A stretch of 64,000 nucleotides of DNA from Streptomyces sp. WZ-12 (GTDB lineage: Bacteria > Actinomycetota > Actinomycetes > Streptomycetales > Streptomycetaceae): NCBI RefSeq assembly GCF_028898845.1, contig NZ_CP118574.1, positions 6,869,001 through 6,933,000 on the forward strand, given 5' to 3'. The position numbers were made by a program, and so were the translations under genes. Below are positions 45,594-59,356 of this stretch, piece by piece. Below the pieces are notes generated by a model that made no database searches, was not told the origin of the DNA, and was given only the letters and a program-made list of their open reading frames with translations. The stretch's first letter is position 1. Each line of letters opens with the position of its first letter.

Positions 45594-46820
45594 CTACCAG
45601 CCGCGGATCTTACGGCCGTACTCGCTGTCCGGGTGGAGCAGCGCGTCGGCGACGCGCCCGCCGGCGTCCTTGGCGCCGCCGCCGAAGTTCAGCGTTCCGG
45701 CCGCGTTTGCGCTGGCGGCGACGCCGTCCCAGTACCGGGCCTCGCGCTCGAAGCGCACCGGCTCGACCAGCCGCAGCAGCTCCTCGACGTTCAGCCGAGT
45801 GCCGCCGAGGGCCCAGCTGGTGGCCTGGTGGGCGGCGATACCGAGCCCAGCGAGTACCGCTGGTGCGGAGACTGCATCATGTGCCTCGAAGTGCGGGAAG
45901 AGCCAGCCGATCAGCTGCGACAGCAACGGAACGATCTCGCGCTCGGCCTGCTCAGGGCTGACCCCTTCGGGCAGCTCACCCTCGTGCACGGTCGAGGAGG
46001 AGAGCCCGAGCCCGCCCCTCCCATGCAGCGTCGTGATCACTAGGACCCGCAGCGCGGACAGGGTCACGACCTCCGGGTCGGCTTTCGTCAGCTGCCGCTT
46101 GCGCGCCTGCACCAGCTTGCTGAGCGGGAAGATCTTCCCGTTGTGCTCGATCTTCACCGCCTCGGCGATCCGGTGGGCGAGCTGGGTGCCGATGTCACGC
46201 TGGTCCATCGACATGGCCAGATTCTTCGCGACCGGCACGCCCTCGACATTGCGGTCGTAGAAGATCTGCCGCGCGTCTTCGACGCTGAGCCCGAAGTACA
46301 GCTCGAACGACAGCCGCACGCTGCTGAGCTTCTCGTACGTCGTCCCGAAGCGCTCCGGGTTGTCGAACAGCTCGTGCCACGCGGTGACCTGCGTTTCCCC
46401 GTCGATCGCCACGACCGGCGACCCTGGCAGCACTGTGATCGTACGGATCCCGCTGCCCGCGATCAGCTCCTCGCTCACAGCCCCAGGCTGCCCGTCCAGC
46501 CACAGCGTGATCGGCGGCGTGGACCAAGCTGCCCCGTGCCCACCACCGATTCCGGTGGCGATGTAGGAGGCATAGGAGGTCACATTCCGCCCCTTCTGTG
46601 AGGCCTTCAGCATCCGCTGCACGAGCCCCCGCACCTCGGCGTGCCGACGCACCGCACCAGAGGCGTACTTCAGGGCCCGCTTGTCCTCCTCAGCCCGGGG
46701 CGAAGGGACGAGCTGGAGCAGCGTCGGCAGCCCCATCGTCCCGATCACCGCATCCGGGCGGAACGGGGTGACCGTGAGCTGGATCCCCTCGACGGTCGTG
46801 GTCGGCATGGTGATGGTCAT
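45594..46820 (-). CDS. DndB-like DGQHR-domain protein
   Basis: A 408-residue protein of the DndB/DGQHR family. The motif region VVAIDGETQVTAWHEL corresponds to the DGQHR signature (here DGETQ). IFYDRNVEGVPVAKNLAMSM followed by DQRDIGTQLAHRI is the second hallmark. In Streptomyces DndB is the regulator of DNA phosphorothioation genes, but no dndA, dndC, dndD or dndE is present in the window. ATG 46820 has GGAAGG 9 nt upstream. It is transcribed divergently from the methylase/hsd run, with a palindrome between, so it may be the local repressor. Confidence 0.78.
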   Translation of the reverse strand: MTITMPTTTVEGIQLTVTPFRPDAVIGTMGLPTLLQLVPSPRAEEDKRALKYASGAVRRHAEVRGLVQRMLKASQKGRNVTSYASYIATGIGGGHGAAWSTPPITLWLDGQPGAVSEELIAGSGIRTITVLPGSPVVAIDGETQVTAWHELFDNPERFGTTYEKLSSVRLSFELYFGLSVEDARQIFYDRNVEGVPVAKNLAMSMDQRDIGTQLAHRIAEAVKIEHNGKIFPLSKLVQARKRQLTKADPEVVTLSALRVLVITTLHGRGGLGLSSSTVHEGELPEGVSPEQAEREIVPLLSQLIGWLFPHFEAHDAVSAPAVLAGLGIAAHQATSWALGGTRLNVEELLRLVEPVRFEREARYWDGVAASANAAGTLNFGGGAKDAGGRVADALLHPDSEYGRKIRGW

Positions 46821-46901
46821 CGTGAGGCCCTTCCAGGTGAGCGTGATGGGAATCGCGGTCTACACCCGGTGATCGTGCTCACCAAGACCGCATGGAGAGA
46901 G

Positions 46902-46925
46902 TGACAGTGCGTGTTAGCACTGTCA
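46902..46925. promoter_or_regulatory. Divergent operator TGACAGTGC-N6-GCACTGTCA
   Basis: Perfect 9-bp arms between the DndB-like gene and the methylase-like gene. On the minus strand TTGACA (complement of 46922-46927) overlaps its edge and can serve as the -35 of the DndB-like gene, with CACTCT 17 nt further as a weak -10. On the plus strand TTCCAC (46939-46944), 17 nt, TACTCT (46962-46967) precedes the methylase-like ATG by 6 nt. Confidence 0.65.
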
Positions 46926-46973
46926 ACAATTCACTCGATTCCACTGTAGCGGCCTCGCGTGTACTCTTGCCCC

Positions 46974-48649
46974 ATGGAGGACGAAGGATCCGCTTCAGCG
47001 CCAGTTGTCACGGCGGCCCAGATCGCACGGCTTGCCGGTGTCACTCGTGCTGCTGTCGCCAATTGGCGACGCCGGCACGACGATTTCCCCGCGCCCGTCG
47101 GCGGGACAGCGGCAGGCCCGCTCTTCTCCCTTTCCGAGATCGAGACCTGGCTGGCCGGACAGCGCAAGGGGCGAGGAGCCTCGCAGGAGGTCGTCCTCTG
47201 GCAGTCCCTGCGCGCCGCGTATGGCGACGACATGACTGCCGCCCTCGTGGATGTCGGCTCACACCTGACCGGGAGGGCCACCGCGGCGCTCGAGGGCCAG
47301 CTCCGGGAGTCCGTCGACCAGATGGTCGCCGAGCGCACCGCGCCGCAATTCTTCGAGGACCTGATCGCCCGTTTCCTCGCTTCGGCCGGCCGCAGCGGCG
47401 CGCAGGCGACCTCCTCTCCGCGCCTTATCAGGGCCTTTACGCACCTCGCCGGACAGGCCGAGGGCTTGGTGTATGACCCAGCCTGCGGTGCCGGATCACT
47501 CCTGCTGACGGTCGCAGGACCACACGCGACCGGACGAGCCGGGCAAGAGCTCAGCCCCGGCCTGCTCCGACTGGCCCAGCTGCGAACCCAGCTCAGCGGG
47601 GGCCCTCCGGCCGGCCTTGAAGCCGGGGACTCGCTCCGGAACGACCGTCACCCCGATCTACGGGCCCAACTCGTCGTCTGCGAACCACCTTTGGGTCAGA
47701 ATGACTGGGGTCGTGAGGAGCTGCTTCTCGACGCCCGATGGGAACTGGGCGCACCACCCCGAGCCGAGAGCGACCTGGCCTGGCTCCAGCACTGCTACTT
47801 CCACACCGCCCCCGGGGGCCGCGCGCTCATCGCGCTCGCGCCATCCGCCGCGTACCGCAGAAGCGGCCGTCGGATCCGGGCGGAGTTGGTGCGCCGCGGA
47901 GCCCTCCGCACGGTTGTGGCATTGCCCTCGGGCATGGCTACCAGTCACAACCTGCCGGTCCTGCTCTGGGAGCTCTGTCGTCCGGCAGCACCGGGCGAGG
48001 AGGTTCAGGCCGTGCGAATGGTCGACCTGACGGCGAACGATCCGGACGGCCCGCTGGAACCGACCCCGGACCAGGTCGCCGACGTATCACTGATCGATCT
48101 CATCCGCGAAGAGGTGGACCTCAGACCGTCCTCGTACGTGACGGAGGCCCAGCCCGACTACCCGACCGAGTACACGGCTCTCCGCACCGCCCTGGAACAC
48201 CAACTGCGTGAACTGGCCGAGCTGCTGCCCCCGCTCCCTCCTGGCCCCGGCACCGGGTCCCTGGACGAGATCACCTTGGTGAGCGTCGGCGATCTGGTCA
48301 AGGCAGGTCTGGTACGTACGGGGGACGGCGAGACGGCTTCCACGAGTGATCAGTTGGACACGGACTACCTTCAAGGATTCCTTCGCAGCGCGAGCAACAC
48401 CCGCCGCAACACCTCCGCCACGGGCACCCACCGGGCAGACCTGCGCGGGGCCCAGCTGCCACAGATGGACATCGGAGAGCAACGCCAGTACGGGGCGGCT
48501 TTCAGGAACTTGGGCGAGTTCGAGCGAAGGCTGAAGGAACTTGCCAGGATGGGCGATCAAGCCACCCGCCTGGCGTACGACGGGCTGACCAACGGCGCCC
48601 TCGCGCCAACGGGGACTTCACACGACGTGACATCACGAGAAGGTGCTGA

Positions 48650-48653
<4 letters not shown>
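46974..48653 (+). CDS. HTH-bearing N6-adenine methylase-like protein with degenerate catalytic motif
   Basis: A 559-residue protein. The N terminus (about residues 8-60) is a winged helix-turn-helix: VTAAQIARLAGVTRAAVANW and FSLSEIETWLAG. A HsdM-like methylase core follows with SAM motif I VYDPACGAGSLLL (Asp168). Catalytic motif IV, normally NPPF/Y, reads CEPPLGQ at Glu237, so adenine methylation is doubtful. A C-terminal part resembles specificity or helical tail regions. A TACTCT -10 ends 6 nt before ATG 46974, implying a leaderless mRNA. It overlaps hsdM by 4 bp (GTGA). A regulatory or DNA-recognition role is more likely than catalysis. Confidence 0.82.
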
Positions 48654-50712
<2,059 letters not shown>

Positions 50713-50716
<4 letters not shown>

Positions 50717-52005
50717 GCGCTCCGGAAATCACATACCCACGCTTCCCTCTGAGGCGCTTCATTCGAGAAATCACAGATGGCCCATTCGGTAGCTCCTTGG
50801 CCAGTAGCCACTATGCCGCAGAAGGTGCTCGTGTTATTCGCCTAGGAAACGTCGGTGCAGCTCGCTTCAAGGAAGGTGATGCCGCTTACATCTCCTTGGA
50901 ATACTTCAAAGAGCTGCGACAGTACGAGGTGAAGTCCGGGGACTTGATCATCGCCGGACTCGGTGACTCCAATCATCCTGTCGGGCGCGCGTGCGTGGCA
51001 CCCCCTGGCCTGGGTCCTGCAATTGTGAAGGCAGACTGCTTCCGCACCCGGCTCGACGAAGAACGGCTTTCCCATCGATACGCGGCCTGGGCGCTCAGTT
51101 CATCCTTCGTATCTGGCCAAGTACACACGTTGACACGCGGCTCAACTCGCGCCCGCATCAACCTCGATGTAGCACGCGAAATTCAATTGCCTGTACCTCC
51201 GGCAGAGGAACAGCACCGCATCGCCGACTTTCTCGACGCGGAGACCGCCCGTATTCATGAGATCTCCAAGGCACACAGCAATCAAGTCACCCTGCTGACC
51301 GAACGGCACCGAAGCTGGCTATCTGAGCTGTCTACGGAACTCACCCAGAAGTACGGATCTGTGCGCCTGAGGCATGTACTGGTGGGAATCGAGCAAGGGT
51401 GGTCGCCGCAGTGTGAGGAGCGCCTCGCAGGCGAAGGCGAGTGGGGAGTCATCAAGGCAGGATGCGTGAACGGAGGAATCTTCGATTCACTACAACATAA
51501 GCGACTACCTCCCTCCATTGAGCCTCGCCGCGAATACCAAATCAAACCCGGCGATCTCCTCATGTCACGAGCAAGCGGTTCCACTGATCTCATCGGTAGC
51601 ACCGGAATTGTTCCAGATATCGATCAACAGCTTCTGCTCTGCGACAAGATTTACAGACTCCACGTCAACAAGGCTCGTGGCCGCACAGAATTCATCGCTC
51701 ACATGCTCCGCACTCATTCTGTGCGAGAACATCTAAAGCTTGGAATTTCCGGCGCCGCAGGAATGGCAAATAACTTGCCTACGCCCGTGGTGAAAGATTG
51801 TGTGCTCCCTGACGTCCCGCTCGCAGAACAAGACTCAGCAATCGCCCAGTTGACCCATATGGGAGAGCTACTCAGTCAGACACAGTCAGCTCTCGAGCGC
51901 CAAATCACCCGTCTCGCTGAGCGCCGCCAAGCCCTGATCACCGCCGCCGTGACCGGCCAGTTCAACGTCTCGTCCGCCTCCGGCCGAGGAGTTGACACCC
52001 CGTGA
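50713..52005 (+). CDS. hsdS: Type I restriction-modification specificity subunit
   Basis: A 430-residue subunit with two target-recognition domains: TRD1 at about residues 8-180 and TRD2 at about 215-385. Each is followed by a conserved helix: LPVPPAEEQHRIADFLDAET after TRD1 and LPDVPLAEQDSAIAQLTHMG after TRD2, ending RRQALITAAVTGQ. The base composition is clearly lower in GC than the flanking hsd genes, common for TRDs exchanged by recombination. It sets the DNA sequence recognised by the complex; the target cannot be predicted here. Confidence 0.95.
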
Positions 52006-52086
52006 TCAGCATCCACAACGGCTCGGCGTCGTCCACCCGTGAAACCCACAGCACCGTCTCACCGGAATGCGAGGAGCCTGATCCCC

Positions 52087-55000
52087 ATGGCGCGCGTCGA
52101 CACCGAGGAAGCCTTCGAGAACGCCGTTGAGGCAGGGCTTCTCGCACACAAATGGAAGTCAGGTCTGGCCAAAACCTATCGGCATGAACTTGGCATCGAG
52201 ACCGATGAGTTGCGCGACTTCCTCCGCGCCTCACAGAAAGATTCCTGGCTTCGCCTCCAGGCCGAATACGGCGAGGACGAGGACGCCTCGATCCAACGGT
52301 TCGCCAAGCGCGTGGCACAGCAGATCGACGCCCGCGGCGTACTCGACGTGTTCCGGCGCGGGGTGAACGACAGGAACGTGAAGATCCAGCTCGCGTACTT
52401 TCGGCCCGCTCATTCGCTCGCCGCCGACGCTCTGCATGAGTACAACGCCAACCGGCTCACCTTCGTAAGGCAGTTTCACTACTCGGCGAAGACTCCCGCC
52501 AAGTCCGTCGACATCGCACTGTTCGTCAACGGAATCCCCACCGCCTCGGTCGAGCTGAAGAACCACCTCACGGAACACCCGCAGAGCGTCGAGGACGCCA
52601 TCCACCAGTACCGCACCGACCGCGATCCGAAGGAGCTGTTCTTCGCCAAGCGCACCCTCGTACACTTCGCGGTGGACCCAACCCTGGCGTTCCTCACCAC
52701 CCGCCTGGCAGGGAAGAAGACCCGCTTCCTGCCGTTCAACACTGGCTCCGGTGGCCCCGGTGTCACCGGCGGTGCGGGCAACCCACCAACCACGGAGGCA
52801 CAGGGCGACGGCGCGTACCCCGTCTCGTACCTGTGGGAACAGATCTGGGACCGCCACAACTGGCTTGAGCTGCTCGAGCGTTACCTGCACGTCGAGGACG
52901 AGCAGGCGAAGGCCGGCAAGTCGCCCTCGCACCGCCCCGGCAGTGCGCACGCCCAGCCGTTGATCTTCCCGCGCTATCACCAGTGGCATGCCGTACGGAA
53001 GCTCACCGATCACGCGACCCGGCACGGCGCCGGGGAGAACTACCTCGTCCAGCACTCAGCTGGTTCGGGCAAGTCCAACACCATCGCGTGGCTCGCACAC
53101 CGTTTGTCGTCCCTGCACACCCCGGAGGATCCGGCGCTGCTCGGCGAGACCATCCGTGCGAAGGGTGTGCAGCCCAACGAGCCGGTCTTCGACAAGGTCA
53201 TCGTCATCACCGACCGCCGAGTCCTGGACAAGCAACTCCAGGACACTATCTTCCAGTTCACGCACACACCGGGTGTCGTGCGACGCATTGACGAGGACTC
53301 CACGCAGCTCGCCGAAGCACTCACCGGGTCCACCGCGCGGATCGTCATCACGACCCTGCAGAAGTTCCCGTTCATCCTGAAGAAGGTCGGCGGGCTCGGG
53401 AAGCTCCGCTATGCGGTGATCATCGATGAGGCCCACTCCTCGCAGGGCGGCGACGGCTCGGCAGCGCTGAAGAAGGCCCTCGGCGCCAAGGCCGTGGACG
53501 CGGACGGCGACCCGCTGACCGCCGAGGCACTGGCCCGCGGCCAACAGCCGAACATGTCGTTCTTCGCGTTCACCGCCACGCCCAAGTCCAAGACGCTCGA
53601 ACTCTTCGGCACAAAGGACCCGGTGACCGAGAAGCCGGGTCCCTTCCATGTGTACTCGATGCGCCAGGCCATCGACGAGGGCTTCATCCTCAACGTGCTG
53701 GACACCTTCATCACGTACGGCACCTACTTCAAGCTGCAGAACGATGCCGTCGAGGAGGTCGAGCGTCGGGTGGACCCACGCAAGGCCCGTTCCAAGCTGG
53801 TGCGTGCAGCGCTGCTGTCCGATGCGTCGTTGGCTCAGCGGGCGAAGATCATGGTGGATCACTTCCGCTCCCACAGCGCGGGCAGCCTCGGCGGACGGGC
53901 CAAGGCCATGGTCGTCACCCCCAGCCGCGAGCACGCGATCCGGCTCTTTCTCGCGATCCGCAAGTACGTGGACGAGCGGGCCGCCACGGACTGCACCCCG
54001 CTGGTCGCGTTCTCTGGATCCCTAACGGTCAATGACGTCGAGTACACCGAGTCCAAGCTCAACGGCTTCCCGGAGAAGGAACTCCCGGGGCGGTTCGGGT
54101 ACGTACGCGCCGATGACGCGAATCCGCCGTCTGTACCGAAGCCCGAATACCGCATTCTCGTAGTCGCGGAGAAGTACCAGACCGGCTTCGACCAGCCGCT
54201 CCTGACGACGATGTACGTGGACAAGCCTCTCGCCAACGTCGCCGCCGTACAGACCCTCTCGCGCCTCAATCGCACGCACCCGCTCAAGTCCCAGGAAGAC
54301 CTGTTCATCCTGGATTTCGCAAACAAGTTGGAGATCGTCAAGGACGCTTTCCAGGCGTACTACGAGACGTCGCTGACCGAGCCGACCGACCCCAATCTCC
54401 TGTTCGACCGGCAGGACGAGGTCATGGGCTACCAGCTGCTCGTGGAAGCCGAGATGGACGCGCTGGTCAAGGCGTACTTCGCAGCCTTCGACGACGGCCG
54501 TGCCACAGAGGACCAAGTCAAGAAGGCACACGCACGACTCTACCGTCACACAGCCCCCGCCGTGGACCGCTTCAACGGCCTCGCGGCCCAGGAACCGGAG
54601 AAGGCCGAGGAGTTCCGCCGGGCCCTGGACTCGTACGTCAAGGCGTACGGCTGGCTCTCGCACATCATCGGTTTCGAGAACCTGGAGCTCGAACGGCTCT
54701 TCCAGTACGGACGGTTCCTGCTGCGCCGGCTCCCGCGCCCCGATGGCACCGCGGCCGCCGACATAGGCGAGACGGTGCCAAGCCACATGCTGGTCAAGCA
54801 GACCGGAGCCCCCGAACTCAAGCTGGAGACGGTCGGAGCCCAGGTGCTGCCGGGTCTGGTGGCCCAGGCGGCAGGGGCTGCGGCGGAGGTCGAGGAGAAG
54901 TCGCTCGCCGAGGTCATCCAGTCCATCAATGACGAGCTGGGCGCCGAGTTGTCCACGGCGGACCAAATCCTGCTCGGCCAGCTCGTTGTGACGATCGCCG

Positions 55001-55305
55001 AGAACACGGACATGCAGGAGGTGGCCCTGGCCCAGGACGAGGAGACCTACGGTCGGGAACTCGCCAAAGACATGGACGACTTCGTCATCAAGCAGGCGCA
55101 GTCCAACGACGCGCTGATGGTCCGCTACTTCGACGACAACAAGGTGAACCGCCTCTTCCGGCGGGTCGCGACAGCCCAGTCGTACAACTTGATCCGCCGA
55201 CCGGCCCGTCGTGAGGCCGACCGGCTGGCAACTGCCGAACGGGCGGCGGAGTTGAAGAACCGTGGTGCGAAACCCGCCGGGCCTTCCGGGCCTGCGGCAC
55301 CGTAA
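52087..55305 (+). CDS. hsdR: Type I restriction endonuclease subunit R
   Basis: A 1072-residue motor-nuclease subunit. The PD-(D/E)xK nuclease has Asp142 in VDIALFV and Glu156-Leu-Lys158 in ASVELKN. The SF2 helicase domain has Walker A HSAGSGKSNT (Lys329), DEAH at residues 447-450 in VIIDEAHSSQGG and TATPKSKT, and motif VI-like QTLSRLNRTHP. All elements needed for restriction are intact. ATG 52087 is 81 bp after hsdS with GAGGAG upstream; the frame is open to 52039. Confidence 0.95.
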   Translation: MARVDTEEAFENAVEAGLLAHKWKSGLAKTYRHELGIETDELRDFLRASQKDSWLRLQAEYGEDEDASIQRFAKRVAQQIDARGVLDVFRRGVNDRNVKIQLAYFRPAHSLAADALHEYNANRLTFVRQFHYSAKTPAKSVDIALFVNGIPTASVELKNHLTEHPQSVEDAIHQYRTDRDPKELFFAKRTLVHFAVDPTLAFLTTRLAGKKTRFLPFNTGSGGPGVTGGAGNPPTTEAQGDGAYPVSYLWEQIWDRHNWLELLERYLHVEDEQAKAGKSPSHRPGSAHAQPLIFPRYHQWHAVRKLTDHATRHGAGENYLVQHSAGSGKSNTIAWLAHRLSSLHTPEDPALLGETIRAKGVQPNEPVFDKVIVITDRRVLDKQLQDTIFQFTHTPGVVRRIDEDSTQLAEALTGSTARIVITTLQKFPFILKKVGGLGKLRYAVIIDEAHSSQGGDGSAALKKALGAKAVDADGDPLTAEALARGQQPNMSFFAFTATPKSKTLELFGTKDPVTEKPGPFHVYSMRQAIDEGFILNVLDTFITYGTYFKLQNDAVEEVERRVDPRKARSKLVRAALLSDASLAQRAKIMVDHFRSHSAGSLGGRAKAMVVTPSREHAIRLFLAIRKYVDERAATDCTPLVAFSGSLTVNDVEYTESKLNGFPEKELPGRFGYVRADDANPPSVPKPEYRILVVAEKYQTGFDQPLLTTMYVDKPLANVAAVQTLSRLNRTHPLKSQEDLFILDFANKLEIVKDAFQAYYETSLTEPTDPNLLFDRQDEVMGYQLLVEAEMDALVKAYFAAFDDGRATEDQVKKAHARLYRHTAPAVDRFNGLAAQEPEKAEEFRRALDSYVKAYGWLSHIIGFENLELERLFQYGRFLLRRLPRPDGTAAADIGETVPSHMLVKQTGAPELKLETVGAQVLPGLVAQAAGAAAEVEEKSLAEVIQSINDELGAELSTADQILLGQLVVTIAENTDMQEVALAQDEETYGRELAKDMDDFVIKQAQSNDALMVRYFDDNKVNRLFRRVATAQSYNLIRRPARREADRLATAERAAELKNRGAKPAGPSGPAAP

Positions 55306-55343
55306 TCTGCACTGAAGATCACCACGAGGGAGAGGGTGCGGGC

Positions 55344-56981
55344 ATGGGGGACGACATGACGCCGACCCAGGACGCGGGGCGGACCGAGAGAGCGCTGGCC
55401 GGGCGGTATCGCCTGAACACCCTCATCGGCGCGGGCGGCATGGGCGAGGTCTGGCAGGCCTACGACGTGAGTCTGGACCGGCGCGTCGCCGTCAAGATGA
55501 TGCTCGACGAGCAGCCGCACGCGTACGCCATCCGGAACGCCGCCCACCAGGAGGCGATGGAGACCCGGCGCCTACGCTTCCTGCGTGAGGTACGGACAAC
55601 CGCCGGACTCCACGAACACCCCGGTATCCCGGCGGTCTACGACACCGGATTCGACGAGGCGAGCGGGCGGTTGTACGTGGTCATGCAACTGCTGAGGGGA
55701 CGCGAGCTCCAGACCCTCGTCGACGAGACGGACTACGACTACGAGCCTCTACCGCTTGCCTGGGCAGCGGCCATCGGAGCGCAGATCGCCTCCGCCCTGG
55801 ACGAGGTCCATCGCCACGACGTCGTACACCGCGACATCAAACCGGCGAATCTGATGCTCACCCCGGGCGGGGTGGTGAAGGTGCTCGACTTCGGCGTCGC
55901 GGCCCTGCTCGGCTCGGGATCGAACCCCCATCTGACCCAGCCCGGCATGACCGTGGGCACCCCTGCCTACATGTCCCCCGAGCAGAGCCTGGCCAACGCG
56001 GTCGGCCCAGCCGCCGACATTTACGCACTCGCCTGCGTGATCTATCAACTCCTCACCGGGCGCACTCCTTTCACTGAGTCCGACGGCAAGTCCGTCACCT
56101 GGCATCAGGTAAACACCGACGCCCCGGCCGTGGGTGAAGTGCGCTCCGACGTACCCGACGACATCGAGCAACTGCTGCTCGGCATGATGGAGAAAGACCC
56201 CGAGGACCGGATGTCGGCGGCCACGGTCTACCAGACCTTGCTGCCGCTGGCCTCTCAGGGAACTCCGGCCGGCACTTCGCCGCTGGTCGCCGCTGGCGGG
56301 CTCGAACTCGATCCGTGTACGCCCTTCACCCGGCCGTTCGGCGAATCGGTCCGCCGAGGGCGCGGCCGAGCGAGGGCCTACACCCCGACCGTGCTAGACG
56401 CCGCGGCGGCGGACCCCGGCGTACTGTCCCTGAGCGAGGCTGAGGCAGACGAAGCGGCCGAGCGTGCGTCGGAACTCGTCGGCCAGAAGCAGTTCACCCA
56501 AGCGGCCGACGTGCTGGCGGACGTGCTGGCCAGGGCCACGGACAATGCTCTGGTGGCCGAACTGACCCTGTCCCTTGCACACGTGAAATTTCTCGCCGGC
56601 GCGCACAGCGCGGCCCTCGGCCTCTTCCAGGAGGCCGCGAAGGGTTTTGGCCGGCGGTTCGGCTCCGATGACATCGAAGTGCGGCGGTGCCTCTACTACG
56701 AGGCCGAGTGTCGTATGGAGCTTGGCGAGACCAGCGCTGCCGTCGCTGCCTTCACCGCGTATGTGCAGGTCGGCCCGGACGAGAGCGACGAGGACGCCGT
56801 CGACCGCCATCTGGAAGCGCTCGCCCAGATCATGCGTCTCGAGGCGGGATCCGAGCGGTTCCCGCAGGCGCGGGCCGCCGCGATTGCCCTCCGCGACGCG
56901 ACGCGGCGCTATCGCGGGCTGGACGCCCCAGAGCTCGCTGACATCGACGGGTTCATCCAGCGACTGAAGCGGTTCGAGTAA
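55344..56981 (+). CDS. Soluble Hanks-type Ser/Thr protein kinase with C-terminal helical repeats
   Basis: A 545-residue protein. The kinase domain spans residues 20-300 with glycine loop IGAGGMGEVW, Lys51 in VAVKMM, catalytic loop HRDIKPANLM (Asp164), DFGVA (Asp182) and GTPAYMSPEQ. After a linker, residues 355-530 form TPR-like helices (ASELVGQKQFTQAADVLADV, then LAHVKFLAGAHSAALGLFQE). There is no transmembrane segment or PASTA domain, unlike PknB-type receptors. It starts 38 bp after hsdR on the same strand, so it is probably part of the same operon. A role in sensing or regulating the restriction system is inferred. Confidence 0.9.
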   Translation: MGDDMTPTQDAGRTERALAGRYRLNTLIGAGGMGEVWQAYDVSLDRRVAVKMMLDEQPHAYAIRNAAHQEAMETRRLRFLREVRTTAGLHEHPGIPAVYDTGFDEASGRLYVVMQLLRGRELQTLVDETDYDYEPLPLAWAAAIGAQIASALDEVHRHDVVHRDIKPANLMLTPGGVVKVLDFGVAALLGSGSNPHLTQPGMTVGTPAYMSPEQSLANAVGPAADIYALACVIYQLLTGRTPFTESDGKSVTWHQVNTDAPAVGEVRSDVPDDIEQLLLGMMEKDPEDRMSAATVYQTLLPLASQGTPAGTSPLVAAGGLELDPCTPFTRPFGESVRRGRGRARAYTPTVLDAAAADPGVLSLSEAEADEAAERASELVGQKQFTQAADVLADVLARATDNALVAELTLSLAHVKFLAGAHSAALGLFQEAAKGFGRRFGSDDIEVRRCLYYEAECRMELGETSAAVAAFTAYVQVGPDESDEDAVDRHLEALAQIMRLEAGSERFPQARAAAIALRDATRRYRGLDAPELADIDGFIQRLKRFE

Positions 56982-57220
56982 GCGCGGCGTAGAAAGGGGT
57001 TCTCGGAGGCACGCGGTCCGTTTCCCCCTACGACCGCTCAGGGCCCCGCCGCGCACCCGACGACAAAGGACCATGCGGTAGCTTCAACGGCCAGCTGCAG
57101 GCTGCGGTCTCCTCCTCATCGCAGCTGCGGCAGCCCACTGGGGAAGGCGCCGCGCCCCATCGGGAAAACGGCTCGGGCTGAGATCGACGCCGACGCCAGC
57201 CCGACGCCGTAACCGTCCCG
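56982..57220. other. Convergent intergenic spacer
   Basis: About 240 bp between the kinase and the convergent AIPR gene. I see no gene and no strong perfect hairpin. Confidence 0.4.
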
Positions 57221-59356
57221 TCAGTCCTCGTCGTTCTGGCTGTCCAGCCACTCGGTGGCCAGCTCGTACAGATTCCGCTTGCCGTCGGGAGTCCAGCGCG
57301 CCGGTGCCTGTACCGAGGTCGGGGCCTCGTCCCATCCAGCAAGTTCCCAGATACGAAGGACCAACTTGTTGGCGGAGTAGTGCTGACCATCGTAGGCCCA
57401 GAGAAGCGGCTTGCTGCGGTCGTTCTGCCAGATCGCCTGCGCCCTGCGGGAGTCGGCTGCGATCCATTCCTTCACGGCACGAGCCTCGGGAACATTGCCC
57501 GGGATGTACGTCAGGGGAGTGCTGTCCGCAAGCAACCCTGCATTGACCAACGTCGGCACCGTGTCGGGACGCCGCGCCCTCCGAGTCCTCTGAGCGGGCG
57601 GCTGGTAGTTCTCGGGCAGCTTCGGTACGGGCCGACGACTGCGCACATCTGGCAGGACGAGGCGGGCAAGCTCCCGGCACTTGGTCTCGTTGGTGAACGT
57701 ACTCGTGAGGAAGGATGTGGGACCGAACCTCGCATCGACATGGTGGATCAGCCACGAGAGTACGGCCCCGGCGAGGTCGGGAACCGCCGCGATCACCGCC
57801 TCCAGGTTGTACGCCGGTTCGTCGATGTCATCGATGTCGAGAAGCTGGAACACGAGGTGGGCAACCAGCAGGTCACCTCGCTGAGCCGTATCCGCGGCCC
57901 GTCCGTACACACGCTTGCGCAATGCGTCGAGTGCCTCGCCGACGGCCCGGTGGATGCACACACTGCGCCATATTCGGAACGCACTCGGGATCTCGCCGAA
58001 CAGCCGTGGATAGGCCCCGCTCCGGCCCCGCTCCCACAACAGGTCCGTGTCCCGCTTGGCACGGACGGTGAGCTCGGGGGTCCGATGGGCGCAGGCCAGG
58101 GCGATCGCCGCGTGGACCACGGAGCATCCCGATTCCGGCGCGGGATCAGCTTCCCCTCGCTTGAAGACGTACAACTTCTGCAGCGAGAGGTCGAAGTCCT
58201 CGCGGATCAGCTCTTGGGCGTTGTCGAGGGCAACGAAATCCCGCTGGGACACGTCGTTCTGAGTGTTCGTAGTCTCCGTGATCCGAGCTGCGTACCGTCC
58301 TCGCTCGGCTCCGAGCGAGATGACCTTGACGGTGACATCGGCATCGTCAACAGTCTCCGGAGTCAGCTCCCTCGCTTTGTGGATCTCGGTCACCGTCTGC
58401 GCTCCGTTGACGACGCTGGCGCGCCTCAACCTCAGCTCGACCGTTTCATCTGGGCGTCGTCTGCCCGGCCAGTTTGGCTCGATCTCGTCACACAGAATGG
58501 TGATTCCGTTGTTGAAGTACCAGAAGTTGTCCGGTTCTTCGCTGAGGGTGATCTGAATGCCGGAGTTGATTCGCGTGAGCCCCAGGGACTTGCGGATGTT
58601 CTCGTCGTAGAGGCGATCCCCATGCTTCTCGTACCATTGCGCGACCTCGGAGGCCGCGACCGACCCCTGATAGGCCATGAACGGCATGTCCCTCTTGATC
58701 CACTGCGGCATGCGGACAGTGATGTCGACCGGCTCCGGAGCGCGGTCACTCTTCAGCTGCTGAAGCAGCTCGCCCGCACCCATGAGCCTGTAGTCCAGCA
58801 TCGGCCCGAGACCGAAATGGTCATCGGCCGCCCGTTCCAGGACCGCTTCCGTATCTTTGTGGAGCGGGTCGTTGCCGACGACCGCGATCACCAAGGTGAT
58901 CTTGAGCCGAGTGTCCGTGAGAGCCGAATCCAGCCGGGCGGTGAAGGGGAGCAGTTTGTCATTGAAGAGATCGAACCTGCGCTGTTCCAACAGGCTCAAC
59001 CCGTCGATGAAGGCACGTGCGGCGTGGGTGTCAAAGCCGGCCGTACCCGAGTCCTTCCACTTCGCCTGGACGAGCCAGACCTGAGCGCCGTCGGTCACGG
59101 CCACGGCGTCGATGCCGTTGTCCCGGCTGCCGTCGATCACGGCTTCCGCGCATGCCTTGTGATCCCAGCCGGTCACCCGGCGGATAGCAGTCGCAGCCAC
59201 CGCTCGGGACAGGAACGCCCGATCCCGCTCCACCTCGGAATTCCGTTGGAGGTCGCTCTCGTCGATGAGCCCCCGGTATCCCCGGATCAATGCCTCGCGG
59301 ATCTGGTGCAGCTCCAGCGCCGTCGTCTTGATGGGTCCTCGCCCCGTATGGCCCAC
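57221..59356 (-). CDS. AIPR-family abortive-infection protein with nuclease-like N terminus
   Basis: A 711-residue protein. Residues 55-105 contain DNGIDAVAVTDGAQVWLVQA followed by Lys99, a PD-(D/Q)xK nuclease pattern (Asp83, Gln97, Lys99). The central AIPR domain has NFWYFNNGITILCDEIEPNW, ASVVNGAQTVTEIH and ITETTNTQNDVSQRDFVALD. The C-terminal 90 residues (TLVNAGLLADSTPLTYI and AYDGQHYSANKLVLRIWELA) resemble the RAMA DNA-modification-associated domain. AIPR proteins give phage resistance beside restriction systems. The GTG start at 59356 has GGGGAG 8 nt upstream. It is convergent with the hsd/kinase run. Confidence 0.85.
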   Translation of the reverse strand: MGHTGRGPIKTTALELHQIREALIRGYRGLIDESDLQRNSEVERDRAFLSRAVAATAIRRVTGWDHKACAEAVIDGSRDNGIDAVAVTDGAQVWLVQAKWKDSGTAGFDTHAARAFIDGLSLLEQRRFDLFNDKLLPFTARLDSALTDTRLKITLVIAVVGNDPLHKDTEAVLERAADDHFGLGPMLDYRLMGAGELLQQLKSDRAPEPVDITVRMPQWIKRDMPFMAYQGSVAASEVAQWYEKHGDRLYDENIRKSLGLTRINSGIQITLSEEPDNFWYFNNGITILCDEIEPNWPGRRRPDETVELRLRRASVVNGAQTVTEIHKARELTPETVDDADVTVKVISLGAERGRYAARITETTNTQNDVSQRDFVALDNAQELIREDFDLSLQKLYVFKRGEADPAPESGCSVVHAAIALACAHRTPELTVRAKRDTDLLWERGRSGAYPRLFGEIPSAFRIWRSVCIHRAVGEALDALRKRVYGRAADTAQRGDLLVAHLVFQLLDIDDIDEPAYNLEAVIAAVPDLAGAVLSWLIHHVDARFGPTSFLTSTFTNETKCRELARLVLPDVRSRRPVPKLPENYQPPAQRTRRARRPDTVPTLVNAGLLADSTPLTYIPGNVPEARAVKEWIAADSRRAQAIWQNDRSKPLLWAYDGQHYSANKLVLRIWELAGWDEAPTSVQAPARWTPDGKRNLYELATEWLDSQNDED

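Follow-up and report, generated by a model that had tools for sequence, protein, structure and literature searches.

Restriction enzymes put the cell that makes them in danger, and little is known about how type I and type IV systems become active. Kinases are known in defense from Pgl and from the methylation-associated defense system (MADS), which brings together a methylase, a specificity subunit and a Ser/Thr kinase. Regulators of restriction-modification (R-M) genes are known separately, in the form of autoregulatory helix-turn-helix (HTH) methylases and of repressors such as RptR (abstract of PMC12255303). The HTH-methyltransferases M.SsoII and M.Ecl18kI regulate their own R-M genes (extract of PMC3978073). 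Here we analyze a gene block in a 64,000-nucleotide stretch of Streptomyces sp. WZ-12 (contig NZ_CP118574.1; the whole stretch is called the window below). In this block, the type I genes hsdM, hsdS and hsdR are preceded by the gene of an HTH/methylase-like protein, labeled M2, and followed by a kinase gene, labeled PK. Our analysis revealed that M2-hsdM-hsdS-hsdR-PK is a conserved, co-inherited unit that moves as a block between species. We consider it likely that the locus is an intact type I system with two control genes, M2 being a methylase-derived regulator that binds a conserved dyad and PK its co-inherited partner.

Co-inheritance of M2, hsdMSR and PK

Conservation was assessed in two sets of loci. 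For the genus set, 246 genomes were searched with the window HsdR. Fifty-two matched at E 1e-120 or better, giving 55 rows with one gene split over two, hence 54 loci including the window, and every neighborhood was analyzed. The named-genome set consists of the best 80 of 585 HsdR loci. Genes were called present from tblastn matches after HsdM cross-hits had been taken out, and identities are those of the best aligned segment.

M2 and PK accompany hsdMSR where HsdR is at least 44% identical. Of 46 such loci in the genus set, 42 are readable on both flanks: 32 carry M2 and PK, six M2 only and four PK only. Neither gene is present at the six readable loci among the eight with HsdR below 44%. 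In the named set, 25 of the 30 loci at or above 44% are readable. Twenty-two of these carry both genes, one M2 only (L188), one PK only (L195) and one, from Cellulomonas (L254, HsdR 51%), neither. Below 44% there are 50 loci, 22 of them readable, and none has M2 or PK. All loci bearing M2 or PK are actinobacterial, from Streptomyces, Nocardia, Actinoplanes, Micromonospora, Frankia, Pseudonocardia, Nocardiopsis, Saccharomonospora, Glycomyces and others. Loci below 44% come from many phyla and archaea, including some Actinomycetota (Nocardioides, Kytococcus, Acidimicrobiaceae). Two loci in non-actinobacterial assemblies (L230 and L247, best segments 45 and 47%) belong to the class at or above 44% and lie outside the 25 readable ones, as they are not readable on both flanks; no M2 is found upstream in L247.

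Distance matrices of the core proteins are strongly correlated across 56 loci (PK-HsdR 0.967, HsdM-HsdR 0.947, PK-HsdM 0.928, PK-M2 0.916, M2-HsdR 0.914 and M2-HsdM 0.903), and none of 999 permutations matched any of these six values. The marker rpoB was sought in 30 genomes; one locus lay outside the core set, leaving 29. Within these, the PK, M2, HsdM and HsdR distances agree with one another at r 0.95-0.98, whereas rpoB correlates with the four at 0.19-0.24. Partial correlations given rpoB are 0.983 for HsdM-HsdR, 0.970 for PK-HsdR, 0.969 for M2-HsdR and 0.953 for PK-M2. The high correlations between the genes and the low correlation with rpoB indicate inheritance as a block and movement between species.

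A chance neighborhood is ruled out by the co-occurrence counts together with the distance correlations. The first-pass annotation had suggested that the kinase, the HTH-methylase protein and the DndB-like protein may form a regulated or phosphorylation-gated version of type I restriction, a suggestion open to the objection that the first two might rarely stand beside hsdMSR in other genomes. Viewed from HsdR, these two are regular partners of one HsdMSR clade. Viewed from M2 it holds only in part, since hsdMSR and the kinase adjoin just 4 of the 51 places in the genus, besides the window, where a full-length M2 is found. At two loci that lack M2 and keep the kinase (L113 and L114), hsdM is preceded by an 832-aa gene, a subtilase-type peptidase as scanned in L114.

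The genome is 9.5 Mb in two contigs. Open reading frame and profile scans found the block at the coordinates below, and these confirm the first-pass layout of seven genes: M2/hsdM and hsdM/hsdS overlap by 4 bp each, hsdR follows after 81 bp and the kinase gene after 38 bp.

45594-46820, minus strand: DndB-like gene, DGQHR-type, 408 aa, divergent from M2; accessory
46902-46927, no strand assigned: predicted M2 operator, a 9-bp inverted repeat overlapping the family-wide dyad
46962-46967, plus strand: -10-like element TACTCT within the conserved GTGTAC box of the M2 promoter
46974-48653, plus strand: M2 (HTH/methylase-like), 559 aa, putative HTH and HsdM-like fold; predicted transcriptional regulator
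48650-50716, plus strand: hsdM, type I modification subunit; Pfam N6_Mtase 206 bits, HsdM_N 80 bits
50713-52005, plus strand: hsdS, type I specificity subunit; Pfam Methylase_S 40.2 bits
52087-55305, plus strand: hsdR, type I restriction subunit; ExK nuclease, Walker A, DEAH
55344-56981, plus strand: PK (kinase gene), Hanks-type Ser/Thr kinase with TPR-like C-terminal half
57221-59356, minus strand: AIPR gene, 711 aa, convergent with the kinase gene; accessory

G+C content is 60-69% in positions 42001-64000 of the window and 71-78% across most of its left part, which has a single dip to 64% at 26-28 kb. The block thus lies in a foreign-looking stretch, with G+C below most of the left part.

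The three type I subunits retain their motifs. HsdM exceeds the Pfam cut-offs, matches PADLOC MTase_I at E 1.7e-261 and has an intact NPPF. In kinase-linked HsdM, NPPF/Y is present at 62 of 62 loci and DPACGxG at 61 of 62, with one further short locus set aside. HsdS passes the Methylase_S cut-off of 22 bits and matches PADLOC Specificity_I (E 8.8e-64) in two stretches. The hsdR start was selected against the alignment consensus. Motifs E172-L173-K174, G342-S346 and D463-H466 of HsdR (numbered from 52039) are invariant in 17 sequences, and the nuclease, Walker A and DEAH motifs are kept at all 62 loci. Because these motifs are intact, HsdMSR should be an intact type I R-M system and should assemble as a normal type I enzyme.

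The M2 start is most likely ATG 46974, which gives 559 aa and matches database entry P0001; GTG 46959 is disfavored. M2 consists of a putative HTH at about residues 14-64, an HsdM-like N6-methylase fold and a stub of a C-terminal target recognition domain (TRD). Helices at 14-21 and 25-34 and then a strand at 49-52 are predicted at the N-terminus. The methylase fold is clear in structure prediction and fold search, the best structural match being PacII-type. Motif I (DPACGAG) is retained, and motif IV reads CEPPLG where NPPF/Y is expected, so that 'degenerate methylase', the label first given to this protein, is apt. The aromatic residue of motif IV is absent from 120 of 120 short-form relatives among those listed (120 of 1898). 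The family has a long form that retains the motifs and short forms without them. The S-adenosylmethionine (SAM) motif I persists in most short-form M2s, the TRD is a stub in the short-form alignment rows compared, and the recognition helix is conserved across relatives. M2 probably has no catalysis of its own. The long and short forms suggest a methylase evolving into a regulator. Plasmid records gave five matches to M2 at E 1e-40, all below 60% identity and all on plasmids predicted to be non-mobilizable; phage records gave three, partial matches only, at 27-30%.

PK matches Pfam Pkinase at 151.5 bits and has both HRD and DFG motifs. All 62 HsdR-linked relatives keep HRD, and all but one of them keep DFG (61 of 62). 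TPR_12 scores 18.3 bits in PK, under its cut-off of 30.1, and exceeds the cut-off in two orthologues. Inspection of the protein sequence by eye spotted no membrane segment. The co-evolution of PK with HsdR, about as tight as that of HsdM, indicates that the kinase is a working part of the system. In many loci with a long M2, such as L118, L119 and L122-L126, hsdR is separated from the kinase gene by genes for an XRE/DUF5753 regulator and for a small HATPase protein.

M2 relatives beside other effectors and their shared dyad

Most places of M2 in the genus are away from type I genes: 47 of the 51 have no hsdMSR set, and a McrB-family gene is near 36 of the 51, usually in a convergent uvrD-mcrC-mcrB operon (families scanned in L037). 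Likewise, 41 of 88 loci with a short M2 adjoin mcrB. M2 relatives stand tail-to-tail with such operons in L037-L084 and L133-L138 (for example L061, L066 and L080). Often the operon also includes a gene of about 800 aa, which in L037 is SMC-like, together with two more genes. The dyad described below is present in most of these operons. These M2-linked mcrBC-uvrD loci are probably a regulated McrBC-UvrD system.

Additional effectors are found beside M2. In L058 (3478-14399) and L059, M2 heads an operon that also encodes a kinase, a DrmD-like SNF2 helicase and, with 1650 aa, a type IIG-like methylase (scanned in L058). M2 is often opposite a kinase gene in family f17. In L145 (6-4733, minus strand), the gene divergent from M2 encodes a fusion of kinase and DEAD helicase that has 1576 aa or more and is cut by the stretch end; frames about as long, also open to the stretch end, are found in L141, L148 and L149. 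On a tree of 132 M2s, well-supported branches force three changes of the HsdMSR label, against 44 for shuffled labels. The tree and the range of effector neighbors indicate that the M2 module is swapped between effectors.

The window contains a perfect 9-bp inverted repeat, TGACAGTGC-N6-GCACTGTCA, at 46902-46925. It is overlapped by the family-wide dyad GTTGACAGTGCTAAC at 46913-46927 on the minus strand. In a 15-mer pattern search of its own genome this is the sole perfect match; five more matches have one mismatch, where a control pattern gives two. In the window alone, one match with up to two mismatches compares with 0.87 expected by chance, which is not significant. Since the single match is at chance level, the case for the dyad rests on conservation across loci.

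That conservation emerged from an unsupervised motif search by expectation maximization (EM) in the 180 bp upstream of M2, made in three M2 groups. The motif is tGTTGACggtGcTaACag before the short M2s of hsdMSR loci (22 sequences, log-likelihood 159), tGTTGACgaCGTaAACa before the mcrBC forms (32 of 38 used, 353) and tGTTTGACAaTGCTTTCA before the long forms (32 of 39 used, 434), whereas shuffled sequences gave log-likelihoods of 55-65. At the scan threshold, a site precedes M2 at 16 of 22, 41 of 41 and 43 of 45 of the training loci in the same order; Markov-shuffled loci gave 0, 1 and 0 matches. The M2 promoter consensus is a GTGTAC box with a -10-like TACTCT about 10 nt upstream of the ATG, and the M2 transcript is perhaps leaderless.

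Sites beyond the M2 promoter are the strongest evidence, because they were absent from motif training. A second site occurs in 32 of 41 McrBC loci. After merging, 30 of 35 second sites lie 33-238 bp upstream of mcrB or of an operon-heading gene of 756-829 aa, 7-14 kb from M2. In L144, L145 and L149, a site falls within the divergent M2/kinase intergenic stretch (threshold 17), and four long-form loci have an extra site 13-15 kb downstream. Changes in the HTH are accompanied by changes in the site in a diverged sub-group of 11 loci. In the 10 with a readable HTH, the recognition helix opens with GVG or GVS in place of GVT. Nine of the 11 sites have GTTCAC; two of these and the remaining two also have a GTTGAC half. 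The motif of this sub-group has a log-likelihood of 87 against 48-53.

The genes flanking the block are less tightly associated with it. AIPR is well matched (118.5 bits, Pfam cut-off 25). The gene called DndB-like in the first-pass annotation is present, but its match is weak: 27.5 bits, below the Pfam DndB cut-off of 29.1, and 17.9 of the 328 bits required by the NCBIfam equivalog. Three orthologues tested include two above the Pfam cut-off (31.5 and 32.6) and one below (27.3). At the 42 assessable genus loci, the DndB-like gene is found 15 times, upstream and divergent, UvrD 15 times and AIPR 16 times; the counts at 25 named-set loci are 2, 4 and 5. Distances of UvrD, DndB and AIPR correlate with those of HsdR at 0.66 (n 19), 0.43 (n 17) and 0.39 (n 22). 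The DndB-like and AIPR genes are thus recurrent but loose neighbors, and the case for them as parts of the system is weaker than that for the kinase and M2. In L127 (12624-14315), a DUF6119 protein occupies the divergent slot held elsewhere by the DndB-like gene. The DUF6119 cluster is found at 8 HsdR-anchored and 7 M2-anchored loci, beside both hsdMSR and mcrBC forms.

Proposed control of restriction and competing explanations

The conserved operator-like dyad before the M2 gene and before effector operons suggests that M2 is probably a transcriptional regulator. The regulatory role suspected for the HTH-methylase protein at first reading is thereby supported in a more specific form. We propose that M2 recognizes the dyad at 46902-46927, which lies immediately before the M2 promoter, and would thereby set the expression of the whole M2-hsdM-hsdS-hsdR-PK operon; the divergent DndB-like gene may also be under its control. 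The same kind of regulator would control mcrBC-uvrD operons in other actinobacteria through a second operator before the effector operon. PK would belong to the control circuit of M2 and most likely relay a signal of infection or stress, either to M2 or to the restriction enzyme. M2 or the restriction complex would be its likeliest substrates. A more tentative proposal, for which we see somewhat less than an even chance, is that of a portable control cassette. A dead-methylase switch, M2, often with a Ser/Thr kinase, would have moved among HsdMSR, McrBC-UvrD, the DrmD-like helicase with type IIG-like methylase and the kinase-helicase fusion, so that quite different nucleases would have related operators and perhaps share one phospho-signaled mode of induction.

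Several observations weigh against M2 as a dyad-binding regulator with PK as its partner. Six genus loci and L188 hold M2 without PK, and PK is no regular neighbor in McrBC loci, so M2 can work without it. The Pfam HTH_17 match of M2 is weak (17.0 bits, cut-off 27). Twelve of the 132 M2 loci are siteless at the threshold, seven of them HsdMSR loci (five in the diverged sub-group) and five from f17, and 9 of 41 McrBC loci have no second site. A strong site precedes hsdM in L171 (L171:6477), where no M2 is adjacent, and L112, L113, L114 and L195 have HsdR and PK with neither M2 nor site. Near-threshold matches (18.2-23.1) occur at 6 of 60 distant-HsdR outgroup loci, a set that excludes the in-group L207 (HsdR 46%); the site matrices are therefore loose in AT-richer DNA. 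Each group in the EM search was controlled with two single-base shuffles, and the GVG sub-group was chosen only after the sequences had been inspected.

The dyad might instead be bound by another chromosomally encoded regulator, or be merely a shared promoter type, with M2 not the binder. The similarity of TTGAC to a -35 hexamer, the site in L171 and the HTH match below the cut-off would fit this explanation. However, the TTGAC core is directed away from M2 in most loci listed and so is not M2's own -35 there. There is a single perfect site in the genome, and sites follow M2 across unlike effectors. In addition, four of the five loci that keep PK without M2 have no site, and HTH and site co-vary in one sub-group. 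We regard this explanation as unlikely. M2 might also be a dead-methylase reader of DNA that recruits a nuclease or helicase to foreign DNA rather than a transcription factor, as its methylase fold, the SAM motif I kept in most short forms and its nuclease and helicase neighbors could suggest. The targets of such a reader should diversify, yet the recognition helix of M2 is conserved; its specificity domain is a stub, and the dyads are left unexplained. Such a role has little probability in our view.

The structural match to PacII bears on another possibility, that M2 is a second modification subunit of a non-canonical type I enzyme (R2-M1-M2-S, as in PacII), partly degenerate and still shaping the complex. 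We find this improbable given the EPPL in place of NPPY, the loss of the aromatic residue in all the listed relatives, the TRD stub and the many M2 genes that adjoin mcrB or have no hsdMSR set. A gating role of the kinase concerns PK and is compatible with M2 as a transcription regulator. PK would act post-translationally on restriction by phosphorylating HsdR, HsdM or HsdS. Its catalytic motifs are intact, as they are in nearly all HsdR-linked relatives, the PK-HsdR correlation is the highest of the six pairs across 56 loci, and four genus loci and L195 retain PK without M2. In the 29-genome set, HsdM-HsdR (0.983) exceeds PK-HsdR (0.971). The loci that retain HsdMSR and M2 without PK speak against such gating, which we consider possible but on balance doubtful.

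With M2 as the dyad-binding regulator, a whole type I clade would have a dedicated candidate regulator, a defined putative operator and a co-inherited kinase. The same regulator family beside mcrBC operons bearing the same dyad would provide a model of signal-controlled restriction in actinobacteria. The dyad can be used as a sequence tag for defense operons that may share control.

Comparison with known systems

The combination of methylase, specificity subunit and kinase resembles MADS, and at the N-terminus of M2 there is a weak match to the mad1 model of PADLOC (E 5.2e-05). The presence of HsdR in the block is a difference from MADS. The curated NCBIfam cut-offs are far from reached (MAD2 for HsdM 52.6 of 720 bits, MAD5 for HsdS 43.4 of 400, MAD6 for PK 148 of 460), and MADS was rejected as an assignment. 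The PADLOC MAD models were scanned against the seven proteins of the block. Pgl, or BREX type 2, is likewise a Streptomyces-type defense that joins a kinase with DNA methylation (extract of PMC12839542). It was rejected as well: the PglW model scores 47.5 bits on PK against a cut-off of 990, and none of PglX, PglY and PglZ appears among the families listed for the block proteins, the PADLOC lists for HsdM, HsdS and PK covering 25 matches each.

PacII-type M1M2S enzymes also have two proteins of HsdM fold and an S subunit. In the extract of PMC9613975, the PacII M2 has NPPY and makes N4-methylcytosine, whereas M2 of the window reads EPPL there and carries a putative HTH. Membership was rejected, as the second M protein of the window reads CEPPLG at this motif and all 120 listed relatives are non-aromatic.

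Among the records listed by full-text literature searches, there was no description of this gene set, nor of a degenerate methylase as a candidate regulator common to type I and type IV restriction operons, with a co-inherited kinase in the type I form. RptR is similar in that it is dedicated to a type I R-M operon, which it represses, and in that its operator is conserved. It is described as small and binds TAGCTA repeats, and the abstract of its report names neither a methylase fold nor a kinase partner (PMC12255303).

M.SsoII has an N-terminal regulatory domain on a DNA methyltransferase (extract of PMC3978073), to which the putative HTH of M2 would correspond. M.SsoII binds a quasi-palindrome of 15 bp between the R-M genes and controls its own gene and that of the nuclease (PMC3978073, same extract). 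By sequence, M2 shares with M.SsoII a quasi-palindromic dyad in its own promoter and appears not to share an active methylase. M.SsoII is an active 5-methylcytosine enzyme and is itself the R-M methylase, as the extract of PMC3978073 describes it. Unlike M.SsoII, M2 appears to be built on a type I N6-methylase scaffold that has lost motif IV and most of the TRD, and is separate from a working HsdM. Also unlike M.SsoII, it occurs with both type I and type IV effectors, and its type I form adds a kinase.

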